Origin: Lacimicrobium sp. SS2-24
GTDB taxonomy: Bacteria > Pseudomonadota > Gammaproteobacteria > Enterobacterales > Alteromonadaceae
DNA length: 64,000 nt
NCBI RefSeq assembly: GCF_002201535.1
Contig: NZ_NIWW01000006.1
Span: forward strand, 1-64,000
Direction of reading: 5' to 3'
The first letter of the stretch is position 1; each line of letters opens with the position of its first letter. The position numbers were made by a program, and so were the translations under genes. The notes beneath the pieces are model-generated. The model saw only the letters and a list, made by a program, of their open reading frames with translations, ran no database searches and had not been told where the DNA came from. This document shows positions 40,747 through 50,513 of the stretch, piece by piece.

Positions 40747-42093
40747 TCAGGCACTGACGCTTAACCCCCGGACAAGGGCCCGGCGATAGGACAGCCATGC
40801 TGGAATCAGGGCCAATACGGCGGCCAGTAACACGATTAACCCCAGATACCCAAGCGTAGAAAGGGAAAACGGTAAGGCACTGATAAACAACCCATACTGA
40901 CTGACAAGCCAACCATCCAGACCGACCAGCACGGCCGCCAACACAAGGTATCCCAGCACGGCCCCGGACAGGGCAATCAAGATCGCCTCAAGCTCAATGA
41001 TCAGCACCACAAAACTGGCGTGAGCCCCAATAGCGCGCAACACCGCAATCTCTCTTTCCCGCTCACGCATTGAAGCCAACAGCATCGTCGTCATCCCCAA
41101 CATGCTGGCAATCAGCACCAGCAGGGCAATCAACGCTAACGCCCGCTCGACCATCCCCATCATCTGCCACAACTGCGATAATGCCACTCCGGGAATGATT
41201 CCCAGCAGCGCTTCCTGCTCGTACTGGTTCACTTTACGCTGAAACGTCAGCACACCAATCCGTGACGTTAATCCTACCAGTACCGCACTGACAGATTCCG
41301 GTTCCAGCTCTTCATGCTCACCAGAGTGGTTCGTCTGAGACGGTGCAGTGTCATGCTGATCGTGGTCGTGATCATGGTCATGAGACGGTCCATGATCATG
41401 TTGATGTTCCTCAGGTGCCGGTTTAGATGACAACCCACGCGTTAAGGACGGCCTCGCTGGCTGTTGATGTATCGCTTCAATAGCGCCCAGTGACACATGC
41501 ACAGTCTGATCAACTGGCGTGCCGGTCGCCGCAAGAATGCCGGAGACAGTGAACGGATGCGCATCATGATGGGTAAAACTGACATCACCGGTGCCATGAG
41601 AAATAACAATTTCGTCACCCACCTTATAGCCAAGTCGTGCGGCTACCTCAGCCCCTACCACCGCCTGCATTGTCGTTTCAAACACGCCACCACGTTGAAG
41701 TTTAAGCGGCTGTGACTGACCATATTTAAAATGCTCAAAATACTCAGCGGTGGTGCCCATTACCCGGTATCCCTTGTGAGAATCCCCCAGAGAAATCGGC
41801 ACTGTCCATGCTACTTCAGGAGAAGTTTTCAATTGCTGATAACTGCTCCAGGAAATATTGTTGGTCGGATTGCCAATACGAAACACGGAATACAGCAATA
41901 GATTGGTGGGACCTGTTCTGGCGCCTACGATCAAATCGACACCGGATACTGTGCGGCTAAAGCTGGTTTTCATCTCATTTTTAAGGTGGTCCACACCCAG
42001 AATAATAAAGGTGCTGACAGCAATAGAGATAACCGTCAGCAGCACCGTCAACCTGCGACTGAATAAACTGGCCTTTGCGAGACTGATTAACAT
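40747..42093 (-). CDS. FtsX-type ABC permease with a His-rich periplasmic loop, Zur-linked
   Basis: 448 residues in the MacB/FtsX plan: one N-terminal membrane helix (about 12-34), a large periplasmic domain, and three C-terminal helices (about 320-440). Residues 230-260 form a dense histidine/aspartate stretch (DHGPSHDHDHDHDQHD) in the periplasmic part, which points to binding Zn or another divalent metal. It is translated with the ATPase (7-base overlap), and a Zur box precedes that gene. It resembles the zinc-regulated Zrg-type ABC systems of Vibrio, which is an inference; direction of transport is not known and FtsX-type permeases often act as mechanical transducers. Confidence 0.8.
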   Translation of the reverse strand: MLISLAKASLFSRRLTVLLTVISIAVSTFIILGVDHLKNEMKTSFSRTVSGVDLIVGARTGPTNLLLYSVFRIGNPTNNISWSSYQQLKTSPEVAWTVPISLGDSHKGYRVMGTTAEYFEHFKYGQSQPLKLQRGGVFETTMQAVVGAEVAARLGYKVGDEIVISHGTGDVSFTHHDAHPFTVSGILAATGTPVDQTVHVSLGAIEAIHQQPARPSLTRGLSSKPAPEEHQHDHGPSHDHDHDHDQHDTAPSQTNHSGEHEELEPESVSAVLVGLTSRIGVLTFQRKVNQYEQEALLGIIPGVALSQLWQMMGMVERALALIALLVLIASMLGMTTMLLASMREREREIAVLRAIGAHASFVVLIIELEAILIALSGAVLGYLVLAAVLVGLDGWLVSQYGLFISALPFSLSTLGYLGLIVLLAAVLALIPAWLSYRRALVRGLSVSA

Positions 42094-42761
42094 GTTGCCA
42101 CCTCGTCATGTTGACTCAGTTGCAACAAGCTTTGCTGTTGGTCAAAGTGCCCTGCCAGGGTTTTGTCATGACTGACAAACACCACTGTGGCCTGATTTTT
42201 TTCACAACACTGCAATAACAAATCAACGAATTGATCGCGCAGTTCAGTGTCCAGTGCAGAGGTTGGCTCATCGGCAATAATAATTTCCGGGTGATTGAGC
42301 AGTGCCCTGGCAACCGCAACGCGTTGTTGCTGCCCCACACTTAACTCGCCTGCGGGTCGCGCCAGCACCGCTGAATCCAGCTCAAGCTGTGCGGTAATCT
42401 GCTCAAGGTGCCCTGCCCCCGGAGCGCTGCCACCGAAGTAGGCGGCCAGCAAGATATTCTGTCGGACGGACAAGTAAGGCAACAGGTTAAACTGCTGAAA
42501 AATCACCCCGATATGTCGCGCACGAAAGCGATCCCGCGCTCCCGGCTTAAGACAGGTCAGATCTTCAGATAACACCCTGACGTGACCTCGCTGAGGCACC
42601 AGAATGCCACACAGCAGATTCAATAAGGTGGATTTACCACTGCCGGATGGTCCATATAAGAAAACTTTCTCCCCTTTATTAACCTGCCAGTGATGAATAT
42701 TCAGAACCGGTTGTTGTTGCCAGGCAAACTGTACCTTGTCGAGTTGGATTACCGCTGTCAT
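42087..42761 (-). CDS. ABC transporter ATP-binding protein (LolD/MacB type), Zur-linked
   Basis: 224 residues: Walker A GPSGSGKS, Q-loop near IFQQFNLLPYLS, signature LSVGQQQRVAVARALL and Walker B IIIADEPTSALD. It is the partner of the FtsX-type permease downstream (7-base overlap). The PYLSVRQN segment is typical of the LolD/MacB/FtsE class. A Zur box, GTTATAATATAAC, stands at 42785-42797, 24 bases upstream of the start, so the pair should be derepressed when zinc is low. Confidence 0.88.
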   Translation of the reverse strand: MTAVIQLDKVQFAWQQQPVLNIHHWQVNKGEKVFLYGPSGSGKSTLLNLLCGILVPQRGHVRVLSEDLTCLKPGARDRFRARHIGVIFQQFNLLPYLSVRQNILLAAYFGGSAPGAGHLEQITAQLELDSAVLARPAGELSVGQQQRVAVARALLNHPEIIIADEPTSALDTELRDQFVDLLLQCCEKNQATVVFVSHDKTLAGHFDQQQSLLQLSQHDEVATC

Positions 42762-42784
42762 TGCATCTCGCTACCCGTTAATTT

Positions 42785-42797
42785 GTTATAATATAAC
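42785..42797. promoter_or_regulatory. Zur box upstream of the ABC operon
   Basis: GTTATAATATAAC, a perfect 13-base palindrome matching the core of the gammaproteobacterial Zur operator (GTTATA-N-TATAAC). A similar site is in front of the TonB receptor gene. Confidence 0.8.
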
Positions 42798-42923
42798 CTT
42801 AATACCCAGCCAAAGGTCAATACAGAACAGCAAACACGGCGCATTATCATCAAAAACAAAAAAAGGGGAGGACAGAAGCATGTTAGCGGGGAGAGGAAAA
42901 ACGTTGCGTTGGCTGAAAAAACA

Positions 42924-42951
42924 AAAAGCCGCTGAAATCAGCGGCTTTTTT
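42924..42951 (-). terminator. Terminator after the cold-shock gene
   Basis: GCCGCTGA/TCAGCGGC stem with A tract on one side and T tract on the other, so it works in either direction. It ends the csp transcript on the minus strand. Confidence 0.88.
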
Positions 42952-43444: not shown

Positions 43445-44455
43445 CTAAATACTTCGGGGCTTAATCAGACTTTGCAGCGCCCCCTGAAGGCTGTCAACAT
43501 CACAGGCGTGTTCACTGATGCATTCGACACGACTATCAAGCCCTTCAGAAAGCGCATTTGTACTGAGCACACCATCGGCCTGATTAAACACATACCAGCC
43601 CTTATCTGTCAGCAAAATCGCTTTGACACGCTGTACATCTAATCCCATAAAAAACGACATCACGCCGTTAAAATCAAAGCAGCTACCAAGGGAAAATATC
43701 CAACCAAAAGTGTAAAAACCATCACTTTGGCGCTGACGACAAATGACCCCCTGGGCTGGCGCCTGAAGTGTCTCCAGTAGTGCTTGTGCTGGCTCTGCGT
43801 CTGCTGGAGCAGTTTCGAACAGCCGTTGCTGAAACTGTGCTTTAGGCACTAACCAGTCGAGTTTTACCTCTCCCTGCACCACCCGGTTAATTTCCCCCTG
43901 ATAGCCCAGTTCCTGAGCGAGCTGTGCCAAAGAGGCAAAATCGCCCTCTGTACAAACATCCGCTTTATTGGCAACTAAGCAGTCAGCGACCTCAATCTGC
44001 TGGCGAAAAATGGGATGTTCGGTATAACGTGAATCTGATACTTTTCGCGCATCAACCAGCGTCAGTGTCTGGCGCAGTTCCAGAACGCCTCGATAATGCG
44101 CTGCACTTAAGCTTTGTAAAATCTCCAGCGGATGGCCGAGTCCGGTGGGCTCAATGAGCAGCCGATCAGGCTGACTTTGTGCCAGCAACAGATTGAGTGC
44201 AATTTGCATTGGCAAACCGGACGTGCAGCACATGCAGCCCCCGGGCACTTCCTTGATATATAACTGCTTGTTGTCACCACTCTCTCTGAGCAGACTGCCA
44301 TCGATACCCACCTCACCGAATTCATTCACCAGCACCGCCCAGGTTTCACCCTCGGGTTTCGTAGTCAGTAAATGACGTATTGCCGTTGACTTCCCCACTC
44401 CCAAAAAGCCGGTAATAATATTCGTGGGTACGGCCTTCTGTATAATTTTCATCAT
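43445..44455 (-). CDS. COG0523 GTPase, CobW/ZigA-type metal chaperone
   Basis: 336 residues in two domains: an N-terminal G3E GTPase with the P-loop GFLGVGKST (16-24) and the metal-binding CxCC motif GGCMCC (C74, C76, C77). NKAD provides base recognition, and a CobW_C domain makes up the last ~100 residues. Members insert metal ions (Zn, Co, Fe) into target proteins. The start lies eight bases after the phoX stop, so it is co-transcribed with phoX rather than standing behind a Zur box as many COG0523 genes do. There is no histidine-rich segment. Its target could be PhoX itself or a shared metal need. Confidence 0.85.
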   Translation of the reverse strand: MMKIIQKAVPTNIITGFLGVGKSTAIRHLLTTKPEGETWAVLVNEFGEVGIDGSLLRESGDNKQLYIKEVPGGCMCCTSGLPMQIALNLLLAQSQPDRLLIEPTGLGHPLEILQSLSAAHYRGVLELRQTLTLVDARKVSDSRYTEHPIFRQQIEVADCLVANKADVCTEGDFASLAQLAQELGYQGEINRVVQGEVKLDWLVPKAQFQQRLFETAPADAEPAQALLETLQAPAQGVICRQRQSDGFYTFGWIFSLGSCFDFNGVMSFFMGLDVQRVKAILLTDKGWYVFNQADGVLSTNALSEGLDSRVECISEHACDVDSLQGALQSLIKPRSI

Positions 44456-44463
44456 TGTCCCTG

Positions 44464-46359
44464 TTAACTGCCTACCCGACCGCCGCCGTCTTTTGTTATC
44501 ACCACCACAGAGGGCCTTGGTGGCATATTGGGGTCATAATCGGGCCAGCGGGTGGTCGGTTTCTCAAAACTGCTTTTGTCTCCGGGATGCTGCACCGAAC
44601 AAAATAAATTCTCAGAGTCAGGGGTAAAAAAGGGCCCGCACAATTCTGCACCTACCGGTGTGCGTAAAAAGCGCTTGGTCAGTGCCCGGCGCTCCCCCTC
44701 TACCTCACAAGCCCAGATGCCATCGGCTACCTGGTGCTGCTCTGCACCGTCTGTGGCTATCCACAGATTTCCCAGCTTATCAAACGCACAGTTATCCGGG
44801 TTGGCCAGCCAGCCATTTTCACTGATATCCGGGTGGTACTGGGTACCCGGTGCACCTTTGCGACCCGCAATCAAAAACATCTCCCAGCTAAACCGCTCGG
44901 CACTATGATCGCCATCCGGGGGGATAAGCTCCAGAATCTGACCATCGCGGTTCTTCGCCCGGGGGTTGGGTCCGTCTGTCTGCGCCGCGGTACGCCGACT
45001 GTTATTGGTTAACATGACATAAACCTGTCCATTGGCCGGATTTACTTCCACATCCTCTGGCCTGTCCATGGGCGTGGCGGCTAATAAATCCGCTGCTTTT
45101 CGACAATCCAGCAACACATCGCCCTGACTGTTAAAGCCATTTTCAGTAGTCAGCGGGCCTTGTCCAAAGACCATGGGCAGCCAGGTTAGCGTGCCGTCAT
45201 CTGAAAAGCGCGCACAATAAAGGGTGCCATCATCCAGCAGATCCATGTTGGCCCGGCGATTATCCTGCTGATACTTACCCTTGCTGATAAATTTATACAG
45301 ATATTCAAACTGTTCATCATCACCACTGTACGCCACAACATGGCCGTCATGATTGATGAATACGTATGCTCCCTCGTGTTTATAGCGGCCCAGTACCGTG
45401 CGCTTCTTTGGCACAGATTGAGGGTCAAACGGGTCAATTTCCACTACCCAGCCCACATGCAATGGCTCTGCGGGTGTCTGGCGCATATCCCAGCGTTCAA
45501 AATGCCGTGACCAACTGCCTCGATGCTCAGTTTTCATGCCAAAGCGCTGGTAATTTTCCTGCTCGCCTGAATCGGTGAAATCTCCTGCAAAGTAAAAATC
45601 CACGTTTTCTTCGCCGGTCAGGATTGTGCCCCAGGGCGTAACACCGCCGGCACAGTTGCCATAGGTACCCAATGTGCGCACCCCATCTGGGCTGTCGGAA
45701 GTAATAAGACGGGAACTACCGGCAGCGGGGCCGGTCATCTGCATTTCGGTTAAAGGTGTAATACGACGGTTATATGCCGAATCGAGCACGGGCTGCCACT
45801 GACCATCGGCCTTTTTGCGAATTTCCACCACACTCAGGCCATGGGCCATCATGTCATTCAGGCTTTTTTCTTTATCCAGTTGATGGCGCCCCGGTGACCC
45901 GGGGTACATCATACTCGGACGGGTGTACTCATGATTAACCACCAACAGTCCCTGATCGGAATGATCACTTCCTAGTGGCAACGGCACAAACCCAATAAAG
46001 TCATTGTTATAGCCAAATTGTTTGCTCTGACGATCAGGGGTTTGTGCATAAGGGTCAAATTCTGGTACATCACTGAAAAGTGGATCACCCCAGCTTAGCA
46101 GTACCTGCGCGTTGTAACCCTGGGCCACAGCCAGGTGCGGATCCAAACCGTGGGGCAATTCCTTAAATGTTAATGAGCCTGCGGCGACATCATTCTTGCC
46201 AGCGACATTATTACCGCCTGGTATTCCACACCCGGCCAGCATTAACGCAGAGCCGCCAAGTCCCAGGCCTTTGAGCGCCTGTCGCCTGGAGATTCTGGCG
46301 GCAAGAATATCGGCAAAAATCAATGCAGTATTCTTCTGTTTAGGCTGTTTTTCTGACAT
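44464..46359 (-). CDS. phoX: PhoX-family alkaline phosphatase
   Basis: 631 residues of the DUF839/PhoX family, a secreted Ca2+/Fe3+-dependent phosphomonoesterase that releases phosphate from organic esters. It carries a Tat signal: SRRQALKGLGLGGSALMLAGC (shown in part), with the twin arginines at about 24-25. Downstream the protein has the family strands KTEHRGSWSRHF and DVEVNPANGQVYV. ATG at 46359. A Pho box lies at 46421-46438, 62 bases upstream, so induction by phosphate starvation through PhoB is likely. A COG0523 GTPase follows in the same operon. Confidence 0.88.
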   Translation of the reverse strand: MSEKQPKQKNTALIFADILAARISRRQALKGLGLGGSALMLAGCGIPGGNNVAGKNDVAAGSLTFKELPHGLDPHLAVAQGYNAQVLLSWGDPLFSDVPEFDPYAQTPDRQSKQFGYNNDFIGFVPLPLGSDHSDQGLLVVNHEYTRPSMMYPGSPGRHQLDKEKSLNDMMAHGLSVVEIRKKADGQWQPVLDSAYNRRITPLTEMQMTGPAAGSSRLITSDSPDGVRTLGTYGNCAGGVTPWGTILTGEENVDFYFAGDFTDSGEQENYQRFGMKTEHRGSWSRHFERWDMRQTPAEPLHVGWVVEIDPFDPQSVPKKRTVLGRYKHEGAYVFINHDGHVVAYSGDDEQFEYLYKFISKGKYQQDNRRANMDLLDDGTLYCARFSDDGTLTWLPMVFGQGPLTTENGFNSQGDVLLDCRKAADLLAATPMDRPEDVEVNPANGQVYVMLTNNSRRTAAQTDGPNPRAKNRDGQILELIPPDGDHSAERFSWEMFLIAGRKGAPGTQYHPDISENGWLANPDNCAFDKLGNLWIATDGAEQHQVADGIWACEVEGERRALTKRFLRTPVGAELCGPFFTPDSENLFCSVQHPGDKSSFEKPTTRWPDYDPNMPPRPSVVVITKDGGGRVGS

Positions 46360-46420
46360 GCAAATTCTCTATTTATAAAATGGTACCTGGCTTACACCAA
46401 TCTCAGTCTGAGGTCAGATA

Positions 46421-46438
46421 GTGACACCACCGTGACAG
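46421..46438 (-). promoter_or_regulatory. Pho box upstream of phoX
   Basis: On the minus strand CTGTCAC, four bases, GTGTCAC: two direct repeats at an 11-base period, the PhoB layout. It ends 62 bases upstream of the phoX start. The second repeat deviates from the consensus CTGTCAT. Confidence 0.65.
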
Positions 46439-46510
46439 GCATAAAGTCTGCTGAGCTTATCTGACCTGCACCCAGTCGCATTGGTTTGGTATTAACGTAT
46501 CCCTGACGCA

Positions 46511-47710
46511 TCAATGCCAGCCCAGCCCTGCCGCAATCGCACAAAACAGCACCACCAGATAGGGCGGCACTTTCCAGAACATCAACATGACAAACGCCAG
46601 CAATGCCAGAGAAAAATCCAGCGCCGTGAGTATTCCGCTTTGCCAGACTGGCTGATAAAAGGCCGCCAGCAGAATGCCAACCACGGCCGCATTAATCCCC
46701 TTAAGCGCCTGCTGTACCGCAGAAAAGTGGCTAAGCGCTGACCAGAAAGGTAACGCCCCAAACACTAATAAAAATGCAGGAACAAATATGGCGATCAGTG
46801 CCACCGATGCGCCGACCAGGCCGGAAACCGGTCCATCAGAGGCACCACCGAGAAAGGCCGCAAAGGTAAATAATGGTCCGGGTACGGCTTGTGCAGCGCC
46901 ATATCCGGCCAGAAAAGTGTCATTGCTGACCATACCTGTTGGTACCACTTCGGCCTGTAACAGTGGCAACACCACATGCCCTCCACCGAAGACCAGCGCC
47001 CCGGCGCGGTAAAAGCGATCGATCAACTCCAGTATTGGGGAGCTGGTACTTGTTGCCAACAGCGGCAGCAATCCCAAGAGCAAAAAGAACATCAGCAAAA
47101 AGATGCCACCGGCCCGTTTACTCAGTGGCACGGTCAGAACATCATGTTGCTGATGATGACTGGCACCCCCCAATAACCACCATCCTGCCAGCCCGCCAAT
47201 GGCAATGAGTATCATCTGAGCCCCCACACCCGGTGCTATCAGTAACACCACCGCCGATAGCACGGCGATGCTGATACGGGGTCGATCCGGACACAGATTA
47301 CGGCTCATACCCCAAAGCGCCTGTGCGACCACCGCCACGGCCACCACTTTGAGACCATGCAGCCAGTCGCTGCCAAGGTATTGCGTGATCTGTCCTGAAT
47401 AAAGCGCAAAAAGCAACATCAATACAGCGGATGGCAGGGTAAAACCCAGCCAGCATGCGAGGGCTCCGCGTATGCCTCCCCACTGCAGCCCCAAACCTAT
47501 CCCCACCTGACTGCTGGCAGGACCGGGCATAAACTGACACAGGGCGACTAGCTCTGCATAGGCCTGCTCACTCAGCCACTTTCGCTTCTCAACAAATTCG
47601 TGCCGAAAGTAGCCCAGGTGTGCCACCGGGCCACCAAAGCTGGTCAGTCCCAGACGCAAAAAAACGCCCAGCAATGTAAAAAAGCCAACCTTTACCTGTC
47701 GTTCAGACAC
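46511..47710 (-). CDS. chrA: Chromate transporter, CHR family (long form)
   Basis: 399 residues with two homologous CHR halves, each with several membrane helices. The N-terminal half has LGLTSFGGPVAHLGYFR, WLSEQAYAELVALCQFMPGP and SSQVGIGLG; the C-terminal half has ALVFGGGHVVLPLL and GYGAAQAVPGPLFTFAAFLG. These are the hallmark FGG and PGP motifs. CHR proteins export chromate, though some members are not shown to do so. The start is GTG at 47710, because AGGA lies six bases before it; the TTG at 47716 abuts that site and is unlikely. It is a single gene. Confidence 0.88.
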   Translation of the reverse strand: MSERQVKVGFFTLLGVFLRLGLTSFGGPVAHLGYFRHEFVEKRKWLSEQAYAELVALCQFMPGPASSQVGIGLGLQWGGIRGALACWLGFTLPSAVLMLLFALYSGQITQYLGSDWLHGLKVVAVAVVAQALWGMSRNLCPDRPRISIAVLSAVVLLIAPGVGAQMILIAIGGLAGWWLLGGASHHQQHDVLTVPLSKRAGGIFLLMFFLLLGLLPLLATSTSSPILELIDRFYRAGALVFGGGHVVLPLLQAEVVPTGMVSNDTFLAGYGAAQAVPGPLFTFAAFLGGASDGPVSGLVGASVALIAIFVPAFLLVFGALPFWSALSHFSAVQQALKGINAAVVGILLAAFYQPVWQSGILTALDFSLALLAFVMLMFWKVPPYLVVLFCAIAAGLGWH

Positions 47711-47783
47711 GTCCAATCCTATATCTTGTTAAGATCTGCTGATGAATAGACTAAGGCAGTCTTCTGAGGAAAGGCAAGGGACA

Positions 47784-47810
47784 AAAAAGGTGGCCTGGGC
47801 CACCTTTTAT
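47784..47810 (-). terminator. Terminator after the TonB receptor gene
   Basis: AGGTGGC/GCCACCT stem with A and T tracts on its two sides. It lies about 85 bases past the receptor stop. Confidence 0.8.
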
Positions 47811-47895
47811 AACGTTACACATTTAACCGCTACACTACCGGCTTATGTGTCGCCCGGAAAACGCTTCGTCATCCCTATGCAGCGTCTTTTCAGGC

Positions 47896-50394
47896 TTAAA
47901 AATAACCCCGTACGCCCACAGCCAATGACCTGCCAGGTAAGGGGGCAATATCTTTTAAGAAGGACGTGTGCACGCGCGCCTCTTCGTCGGTAAGGTTGCT
48001 ACCTTTAAGATAAAATGCCAGCTCATTCCCACCAACAGGCACATGGTAGGTGACATTTGCATCCAGCAGCGTATAACCGCTTGTTTCGCTCTCCAGTTCA
48101 GCGGTCTTATCCTGCTTGAAATAGCGTGTCAGACCAATATCCGCACTCACCTGTTCATATTCATAATTCAGCCTGGCGGCCAGTCGTAAAGGTGGAATTC
48201 GCGGCAGGTCTCCTCCCTGCTTCAGGCGCGCACGAATATAATCGCCCTGCACCACCAGTTTAAGCGGTGCACTGATTTGCCAGTTAACCTGCGCTTCAAA
48301 TCCGTGTAAGACAACGTCTTCCTGTGCGAATAAATAGACCGGCAACTCGTCGGCATGCAGCTCCTCTTCAGCGCCATGCTCTTCTTCCTCATGAGCGTGC
48401 TCTTCCTCTTCGTGCTCATGTCCGTCACCGGCAAACAGCCCCGTGGCCTGCTGGTAATAAAAGTCATCGGCCTGGTTATAAAACGCATTTAAGACAAAGC
48501 CTAAATCACCACTGACCTTGCGCAAACTGATATCCAGGTTGGTGGATGTTTCAAGCTCCACATCGTTGTCACTGACACTGAGAAAACGTTCACCCTCTTC
48601 TTCCACTAATTCGAAAATCGCACCCACTTCAAAGCTATTGGTGCCAATATGAGGACCAAACGAGAATAATTCCGCTGCCGATGGCGCCCGTTGAGAACGG
48701 GATAAGGACACTGCCATGTTATAACCCGGATGAAAATCCCAGACTAACCCTGCCGACAAACTATAGGGGGTGAAATCCTTCGATGAGGTAAAGAATTCTG
48801 CGACTTCATCGCCGTGCTCGTCCTCATGACCCGGTTCATCTTCATGAACCTCATCATCATGATGCACCTCATCGCCGTGCACAGCAGACTCAGGGAAACG
48901 CACCTGGTCTGCATTGATTTCAACGTGCTCAATTCTGGCACCTAGCTGTACCAGCACATCACCGAAATGCCGTTCTTCCATCCATCCAAGTGCTAACATT
49001 TCGGTGTCAGAGGGCGGAGAGAATGCCTCATCGCCCTGCGCCTCAAAGTCACTTTGCTTATAATGCAGACTCAGGCCACCACGCCAGTTGTGATAATGCT
49101 TATGCAGCAGCTCAATTCTGGCCTCTTTACTGGTGTTTTTGAATAAGGTCCCTATCTGACCATCTTCTACTTCTGCGTGTTGATAGTCGGTGTAGGCAAA
49201 CTTACTGTTGATGCCACTGATAAAAGCATGATCGAAGCTCAGCTCACTGAGAATCTGTACTCTATCCTGCTTCATATCGGCATACACTGACTCCTCCATC
49301 TCGTCAGTATGGCCATGTTCGTCTTCATGATCTTCTTCATGTCCGTGCTCTTCACCGTGAGCATGGCCGGGAATACCGTACTCACGCTCGAGACGACCGT
49401 ACGAGAAACCCACAAAACCATTGTCTAACAGGTAGCTGCTACCTAAGGTGAACCCCTTGGATTCTGATGCCGTATTCTCTACCGTGCCATAGCCACCTTC
49501 TTCGTCATGATGCTCGTGCTCATCATGTTCTGATTCGGTTTCTGCGTGTCCGGGGATGCGGTAATCATCGTTTTCACGCCAGAAGCCATCCACATACACC
49601 CCCACATTGTCGGTGCCGGTATTCAGTGATGCTGACATCAGCTTCTGATTATTGACAGAATCTCGTTCCAGAGTTGCTTCGCCGCGGGTCAGGGTATCTT
49701 TAGGTACGCGGTTATCCACCACATTCACCACACCACCGATAGCGCCACTGCCATAGAACAGCGTTGATGGACCACGCAGTACTTCAATCTGTGTCGCCGT
49801 GCTGGCTTCAGCAGCTGTGACATGATCCGGACCCACTCTGGAGGCATCTCCTGCCCCCAGACCGTTTTGCGTAATCATAACTCTGGGACCGTCCAGTCCA
49901 CGAATGATGGGGCTGCTGGCCACTGACGCATAAAAGTTGCTGTGCACGCCGACTTCATTTTTCAGCGTATCTCCCAGTGTGGCCGCCTGACGCATTCTCA
50001 GGTTATCTCCGGCGAGCACACTAACAGGTATGGAAGATTCCAGTGCCGATGAATGAAAAGGGGTGGCGGTCACATCCACCACTTCCATACTGGTATTGAT
50101 CATCGTCAGATTGAGGTTGCTCAGTCCCGTTTCAGGTACCTCTACATCCGTATTTAAGTGTGCGAAACGGGGGGCTGACAGATGCAACTCGAGTGTACCG
50201 CTGCGCACCTTATCAAACTGGAAGCGCCCCTGGTTATCGGTGGTTTGCGTCAGGTTAGTGCCCATAATCTGCACTTTGGCCCCCACTACCGGTAAGCCAT
50301 CGGCATCACTAATTTTCCCCGCCAGAGTCTGTGCCAATGCATAAGGCGTTAACAGCGTACCCAGGGTGGCCGCCAATACGGTTAGCTTTTTCAT
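47896..50394 (-). CDS. TonB-dependent receptor with His-rich loops (ZnuD-like)
   Basis: 832 residues. Signal peptide to about residue 21, then a carboxypeptidase-regulatory-like domain (about 24-100), the plug (LRGPSTLFYGSGAIGGVVNV at 206-225) and an outer-membrane beta barrel ending in phenylalanine. Four histidine/glutamate-rich loops stand out at about 283-297, 343-366, 506-529 and 658-680 (for example HEEDHEDEHGH). Such loops are typical of zinc receptors of the ZnuD type. Two Zur boxes lie upstream, one (50501-50513) perfect, so uptake of zinc, energised by TonB, is the likely role. No inner-membrane partner is adjacent; the FtsX-type ABC pair at 40.7-42.8 kb shares the Zur motif. Confidence 0.85.
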   Translation of the reverse strand: MKKLTVLAATLGTLLTPYALAQTLAGKISDADGLPVVGAKVQIMGTNLTQTTDNQGRFQFDKVRSGTLELHLSAPRFAHLNTDVEVPETGLSNLNLTMINTSMEVVDVTATPFHSSALESSIPVSVLAGDNLRMRQAATLGDTLKNEVGVHSNFYASVASSPIIRGLDGPRVMITQNGLGAGDASRVGPDHVTAAEASTATQIEVLRGPSTLFYGSGAIGGVVNVVDNRVPKDTLTRGEATLERDSVNNQKLMSASLNTGTDNVGVYVDGFWRENDDYRIPGHAETESEHDEHEHHDEEGGYGTVENTASESKGFTLGSSYLLDNGFVGFSYGRLEREYGIPGHAHGEEHGHEEDHEDEHGHTDEMEESVYADMKQDRVQILSELSFDHAFISGINSKFAYTDYQHAEVEDGQIGTLFKNTSKEARIELLHKHYHNWRGGLSLHYKQSDFEAQGDEAFSPPSDTEMLALGWMEERHFGDVLVQLGARIEHVEINADQVRFPESAVHGDEVHHDDEVHEDEPGHEDEHGDEVAEFFTSSKDFTPYSLSAGLVWDFHPGYNMAVSLSRSQRAPSAAELFSFGPHIGTNSFEVGAIFELVEEEGERFLSVSDNDVELETSTNLDISLRKVSGDLGFVLNAFYNQADDFYYQQATGLFAGDGHEHEEEEHAHEEEEHGAEEELHADELPVYLFAQEDVVLHGFEAQVNWQISAPLKLVVQGDYIRARLKQGGDLPRIPPLRLAARLNYEYEQVSADIGLTRYFKQDKTAELESETSGYTLLDANVTYHVPVGGNELAFYLKGSNLTDEEARVHTSFLKDIAPLPGRSLAVGVRGYF

Positions 50395-50409: not shown

Positions 50410-50422
50410 GTTATATCGTAAC
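50410..50422. promoter_or_regulatory. Secondary Zur-like box near the TonB receptor start
   Basis: GTTATATCGTAAC departs from the 13-base palindrome at one position and lies 16 bases before the receptor start codon, where binding would block the ribosome-binding region or promoter. Confidence 0.45.
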
Positions 50423-50500: not shown

Positions 50501-50513
50501 GTTATATTATAAC
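50501..50513. promoter_or_regulatory. Zur box upstream of the TonB receptor
   Basis: GTTATATTATAAC, a perfect palindrome; flanking bases extend it to ATGTTATATTATAACAT (50499-50515), the full gammaproteobacterial Zur operator. Confidence 0.85.

Follow-up and report, generated by a model that had tools for sequence, protein, structure and literature searches.

A ZrgBC-type ABC transporter pair behind a Zur-type box in Lacimicrobium sp. SS2-24, with a histidine-rich permease loop and no detectable ZrgA

An adjoining ATPase and permease gene in a 64,000-nucleotide stretch of Lacimicrobium sp. SS2-24 (the whole stretch analysed, hereafter the window) are the ZrgC and ZrgB core of Zrg, a known system under Zur control that is represented by ZrgABCDE in Vibrio and PA4063-4066 in Pseudomonas. 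We favour, at a probability of about one half, the reading that the pair is a ZrgA-free variant of Zrg, in which a His/Asp-rich loop of the permease does part of the metal capture of ZrgA and which probably serves zinc acquisition. The features of the locus are as follows.

40747 to 42093, minus strand: ZrgB-type MacB/FtsX permease, 448 aa (open reading frame; Pfam MacB_PCD and FtsX above cut-off)
41311 to 41457, minus strand: permease codons 213-261, predicted disordered loop with the His/Asp-rich run (pLDDT <50; His at 230-260)
42087 to 42761, minus strand: ZrgC-type (LolD/FtsE-like) ABC ATPase, 224 aa (open reading frame; Pfam ABC_tran above cut-off)
42785 to 42797, no strand assigned: Zur-type box, exact 13-mer, palindromic except at its centre (exact match; kept in both same-genus genomes)
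42790 to 42820, minus strand: possible promoter, TTGACC, 19 bases, TATATT within the box (motif count)
42923 to 42950, minus strand: terminator-like stem and T run between the pair and the upstream gene

Both the permease and the ATPase of the initial annotation were found as open reading frames, the start of the former overlapping the end of the latter by 7 bases, and the Zur-type box that it had placed 24 bases upstream of the ATPase was recovered as an exact 13-mer: GTTATAATATAAC occupies 42785-42797, its near edge 24 bases upstream of the ATPase ATG with 23 bases intervening. Two occurrences of GTTATAWTATAAC were counted in the 64-kb window, as against none in 100 shuffles, and across the 3.71 Mb genome the exact 13-mer is found three times (the ATPase-permease pair, 50501-50513, and contig C19). 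Sites with up to two mismatches number 42 genome-wide, fewer than the 76 obtained with the reversed pattern as control; hence only the exact sites carry weight, and the weak ones were dropped as evidence. In the two same-genus genomes found (G362 and G331), the box recurs unchanged, lying 24 and 21 bases ahead of the ATPase, within a block that is conserved around it, the leader further up having diverged. Both also carry a promoter-like motif (CTGACA, 17 bases, TATATT); the TTGACC/TATATT pair of the window is absent from the list returned by a consensus promoter scan. The terminator-like stem (42950-42923) sets the pair apart from the upstream gene. Two FUR-family genes are encoded in the genome, and among the NCBIfam models Zur fits the one on contig C16 best, at 144.9 bits and thus below the cut-off of 167, for which reason it is termed Zur-like. 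Zur is predicted to bind at the box, and the exact and conserved box, together with a Zur-like regulator in the same genome, speaks for the ZrgA-free reading.

A zinc-controlled MacB/FtsX permease had been regarded as unusual in the initial annotation, a view that is not upheld by the literature, in which permeases of the ZrgB / PA4065 type are reported to be Zur-controlled in Vibrio and Pseudomonas (PMC9817125, PMC11481552) and the ZrgBC / PA4064-4065 pair is reported in five papers (PMC9817125, PMC11481552, PMC9820375, PMC8561739, PMC6103462). Since the pair is the core of this known system, zinc control of such a permease is not new. The suggested kinship with Vibrio Zrg was borne out by a homologous Aliivibrio permease with 44% identity and by the locus itself, where a LolD-like ATPase gene is followed by a homologous MacB/FtsX-type permease gene with a Zur-type box at the promoter. 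Identity to the permeases of named Aliivibrio, Pseudomonas, Ferrimonas, and Nitrincola loci ranges from 41 to 47%, which likewise argues for a Zrg variant; in all four the permease adjoins ZrgA and a DUF3299 gene is included in the locus, and the window permease falls among ZrgA-linked permeases in trees. With ZrgABCDE of V. cholerae and V. parahaemolyticus the locus shares the Zur-type box, the LolD-like ATPase, and the four-TM MacB-like permease, but it has neither zrgD nor zrgE adjacent and no ZrgA detected in its genome, and its His-rich loop is located on the permease whereas theirs is on ZrgA. Separate ATPase and MacB-type permease genes under Zur control are likewise found in PA4063-PA4066 of P. 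aeruginosa (the P. juntendi permease is 44% identical to that of the window), which, unlike the window locus, also encodes PA4063, homologous to ZrgA, and PA4066, of the DUF3299 type.

The assignment of the permease to the FtsX/MacB type agrees with its MacB_PCD and FtsX domains, both above the Pfam cut-off. An AlphaFold model built from 10 sequences (mean pLDDT 81) was placed by Foldseek and VIA-align with LolCDE, MacB, HrtBA, and a pneumococcal relative. Like LolCDE and MacB in predicted fold and domain order, the pair nevertheless scores far under the corresponding NCBIfam cut-offs, at 23.6 bits against 966 for the MacB model NF007826 and 42.6 against 362.45 for the LolC/LolE model TIGR02212; ATPase and permease are moreover separate genes, which in MacB they are not, and the pair is accordingly classed as neither. 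The single long stretch of the model with pLDDT <50 spans residues 213-261, predicted to lie between TM1 and TM2 on the periplasmic side by MacB topology, and includes the periplasmic His/Asp-rich stretch pointed out earlier at 230-260, in which 10 His and 7 Asp/Glu were counted among 31 residues (20 His in the entire protein). A LolCDE/MacB fold with this loop as its one long disordered stretch speaks for the ZrgA-free reading.

As had been noted, the usual partner genes are not adjacent, neither a DUF2796 nor a DUF3299 gene lying next to the pair. The proposed partner lipoprotein was sought elsewhere in the genome and was not found: the ZrgA profile (PF10986) gave 0 matches in the window genome, compared with 46 of 76 genomes of relatives, 33 of 78 in a second set, and 0 of 14 control genomes. 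The designation of ZrgA as a lipoprotein found no backing in the portions available of the Zrg literature (among it PMC9817125, PMC11481552, and PMC9820375), which describe a periplasmic protein and make no mention of a lipoprotein. No match in the genome was obtained for ZnuA, the cluster A-I binding protein (PF01297; 11 of 14 control genomes positive), for ZIP (8 of 14 controls positive), or for an AztD-like query (32 of 80 relatives positive), in searches that score only candidates from a loose first look and could miss a very diverged copy. Given that no ZnuA or ZIP importer is detectable, zinc acquisition is the likeliest purpose of the pair. The DUF3299 gene is present as a single copy outside the locus, at C12:328103. 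Across the family of the window organism, ZnuA scored above the cut-off in 5 of 70 genomes (a sixth gave a weak match), compared with 9 of 9 genomes from other families.

The relation between loop and partner was followed through an alignment of the window permease with 157 relatives, of which 155 loci were counted after three rows had been dropped (L088 at a contig end, L098 with the permease in two frames, and L125 with a run of N); L022 was left out for an X in its frame. In a first sampling, the permease was found in 105 of 295 genomes including its own, and of the other 104, 72 were fetched (73 loci) and 32 were not; in a second, 149 of 196 genomes contained it, and the 80 places retrieved were mainly those that ranked highest by E-value. 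Loci were called His-type with at least 5 His in the permease insert and ZrgA-linked with ZrgA within 12 kb. Not one of the 69 ZrgA-linked loci (median insert 28 aa) reaches 5 His, the highest count being 4, whereas 68 of the 86 loci without linked ZrgA do so, with up to 77 His in 270 aa, although the His-type fractions are not population estimates because the top of the E-value list favours full-length matches and hence His-type inserts. Beyond what the initial annotation had remarked for the single locus, the His-rich stretch and the missing partner therefore go together across relatives, and this split, alongside the missing ZrgA, ZnuA, ZIP, and AztD matches, argues for the ZrgA-free reading. 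Five distant His-rich homologues (L023-L027) were excluded as loop evidence, since one of the search patterns used was HDHDHDHD itself.

In ZrgA-linked loci it is ZrgA and not the permease that bears the His run, with a median peak of 12 His per 30 residues over 65 ZrgA proteins as against 3 over 69 permeases, and in a genome with two copies of the permease (G282) the ZrgA-linked copy has 0 His in its insert and the other 6, both of which favour a loop that stands in for ZrgA. So does a prediction set beforehand for 20 further loci, in which ZrgA was judged by local HMM within the fetched 13-14 kb only: none of the 7 ZrgA-linked loci is His-rich, and no counterexample with both traits occurred. 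The same loci also weigh on the other side, in that 13 have no ZrgA and 4 of these are His-rich, leaving 9 with neither trait, as are 18 of the 155 counted loci. ZrgA was not found in the genome for 69 of the 86 unlinked loci (60 His-type), lies elsewhere in the genome for 16 (7 His-type), and survives as a fragment in the same-genus G331 (His-type); that 8 of the 17 loci with unlinked or broken ZrgA are His-type, among them the same-genus G362 and G331, counts against the ZrgA-free reading.

Ancestry weakens the link further. A 75-row tree calls for 7 changes of the His-insert group, of which supported branches force at least 5; a 154-row quick tree, from which the distant row L142 was also omitted, calls for 11, at least 7 of them forced. 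Among seven supported independent pairs, some three to four differ in linked ZrgA as well, always in the same direction; with so few pairs differing in both traits, a sign test, which takes no fewer than six, cannot reach significance, and when ZrgA absence anywhere in the genome is considered instead, one pair goes the opposite way in some pairings. A claim of correlated evolution was accordingly rejected, as the Fisher test over loci (p 2e-27) ignores ancestry and the independent pairs are too few. The mutual exclusion of loop and ZrgA, as judged from sequence comparison, would best be described as a strongly regular pattern whose two sides have not been proven to change together, and is not significant after ancestry is taken into account. 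The nearest kin of the window permease in the first tree (G292) has neither ZrgA nor loop, which would fit loss of ZrgA first and growth of the loop later.

A box with at most one mismatch, tallied over the 200 bp upstream of the ATPase, accompanies just 15 of 69 His-type relatives (0 in shuffles), which also tells against the ZrgA-free reading; 12 of the 15 belong to one genus (f11 g25) and 2 to the genus of the window, and the idea that His-type loci are generally Zur-controlled was set aside as unsupported. Within f11 g25, 12 of 13 genomes are His-type and all 12 His-type loci possess the Zur-type box with no more than one mismatch. L140, L141, and further loci of this genus have inserts of 85-270 aa with 20-77 His and repeats such as HDEHDHED, and their lengths vary between close relatives in a way that hints at rapid growth and contraction of the repeat. 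At L263 (G449), an extended (EQ)n run stands in place of the (EH)n of relatives, the insert containing 4 His; codon change may have removed His there.

Under the ZrgA-free reading, ZrgC and ZrgB would form, without ZrgA, a two-component ABC machine that is repressed by Zur and works by mechanotransmission in the manner of MacB/LolCDE. As zinc falls, Zur would come off the box that overlies the promoter, allowing the pair to be made; the disordered loop on the periplasmic domain would bind zinc loosely, and perhaps other divalent metals, holding it near the moving domain and thereby performing in cis part of the role that the His-rich ZrgA plays in trans in Vibrio. ATP hydrolysis would then move the periplasmic domain via the four helices and, with it, the metal or a metal complex. 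A precedent is offered by UreG, reported to carry a His stretch in genomes without UreE (PMC2770081), where too a partner bears the His-rich stretch when the separate metallochaperone is absent, albeit UreG is a GTPase of urease maturation and not a membrane transporter. Against such a division of labour stands the report that ZrgA is needed in V. cholerae and its His loop dispensable (PMC9820375). The wider proposition, that several lineages independently dropped ZrgA by growing the permease loop and so arrived at a zinc ABC transporter without a separate binding protein, which here would be the main high-affinity zinc system, is put forward tentatively and at less than even odds.

Transport in the other direction has to be weighed as well, since PA4063-4066, the P. 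aeruginosa homologue, has been described as a cobalt-pyochelin exporter of the MacB type (PMC11481552), a proposal that runs counter to the import reading of the window pair, and since solved relatives of the fold include the exporters MacB and HrtBA. The pair might by analogy expel a chelator, cobalt, or a mis-imported complex under zinc starvation, with the loop sensing or stripping the metal. Vibrio mutants, however, are reported to point to zinc acquisition (PMC9817125, PMC9820375), and no MacA-like adaptor was evident by eye among the open reading frames beside the pair; we regard it as unlikely that the pair exports a metal complex or metallophore. It is likewise rather unlikely that a different periplasmic partner (DUF3299, MerC-family, AztD-like, or unrecognised), whose gene lies elsewhere, serves the pair, the loop being an accessory metal store. 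The unlinked DUF3299 gene, the MerC-family gene behind an exact box on C19, and the AztD-like gene that both same-genus genomes have near the ATPase (about 3.8 and 5.6 kb away) would lend themselves to that role, but homologues of AztD, ZrgA, and ZnuA were not found in the window genome, and the DUF3299 protein of V. cholerae, ZrgE, reportedly cannot replace ZrgA (PMC9820375).

The loop could finally have no metal role at all, as a neutral stretch of low complexity inserted where the surface tolerates it and held short for other reasons where ZrgA docks. Insert lengths of 12 to 270 aa among relatives and the His-poor (EQ)n run of L263 accord with this; the recurrence of His with Asp/Glu in many lineages (the 68 of 86 loci above) and the position of the window loop behind a conserved Zur-type box do not, and a neutral loop is accordingly thought very improbable.

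The other boxes of the genome were surveyed alongside. The exact box at 50501-50513, with a 2-mismatch box at 50410-50422, precedes the gene of a TonB receptor that contains 42 His and has ZnuD as its best NCBIfam match (387 bits against a cut-off of 950). Behind it, a same-direction run on the minus strand (43445-50394) encodes this ZnuD-like receptor, a chromate transporter, a PhoX phosphatase, and a COG0523 GTPase; ChrA-PhoX-COG0523 is kept in the same-genus G362 and AztD-ChrA-COG0523 in G331. PhoX needs no zinc, and its placement under Zur, of which the literature searched makes no mention, would if true suggest a zinc-sparing phosphate supply. The exact box on C19 (153616-153628, L003) stands 9 bases upstream of the MerC-family gene (PF03203). 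A MerC-like gene also occurs in the fetched stretch of 14 of 69 ZrgA-linked relatives and adjoins the pair on a Catenovulum plasmid, and MerC may be an unrecognised zinc-starvation transporter. Of the 1-mismatch boxes, that at C18:100286-100298 (L005) precedes a gene named by eye as LysR-type, and that at C12:391313-391325 (L004) lies inside, not upstream of, an open reading frame recognised by eye as folE-like.

No description of a ZrgA-less, His-loop permease was found in the literature searched, which is not proof of its absence in print; ZepA was set aside as a comparison, the available part of its report featuring no ABC permease in the system (PMC10957091). What is new here is the lack of any ZrgA, ZnuA, ZIP, or AztD match in the genome combined with the exclusion between loop and ZrgA, the principle itself having its precedent in UreG (PMC2770081). 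The part played by a MacB/Lol-type machine in zinc supply is unsettled, both import and export having been proposed in print. A variant that dispenses with the partner essential in V. cholerae, and bears its loop in cis, would allow a clean test of the role of ZrgA and of the direction in which the metal travels. Given that ZnuA is so rare among the genomes of the family that were examined, zinc economy may depend on the pair more heavily there than in Vibrio.
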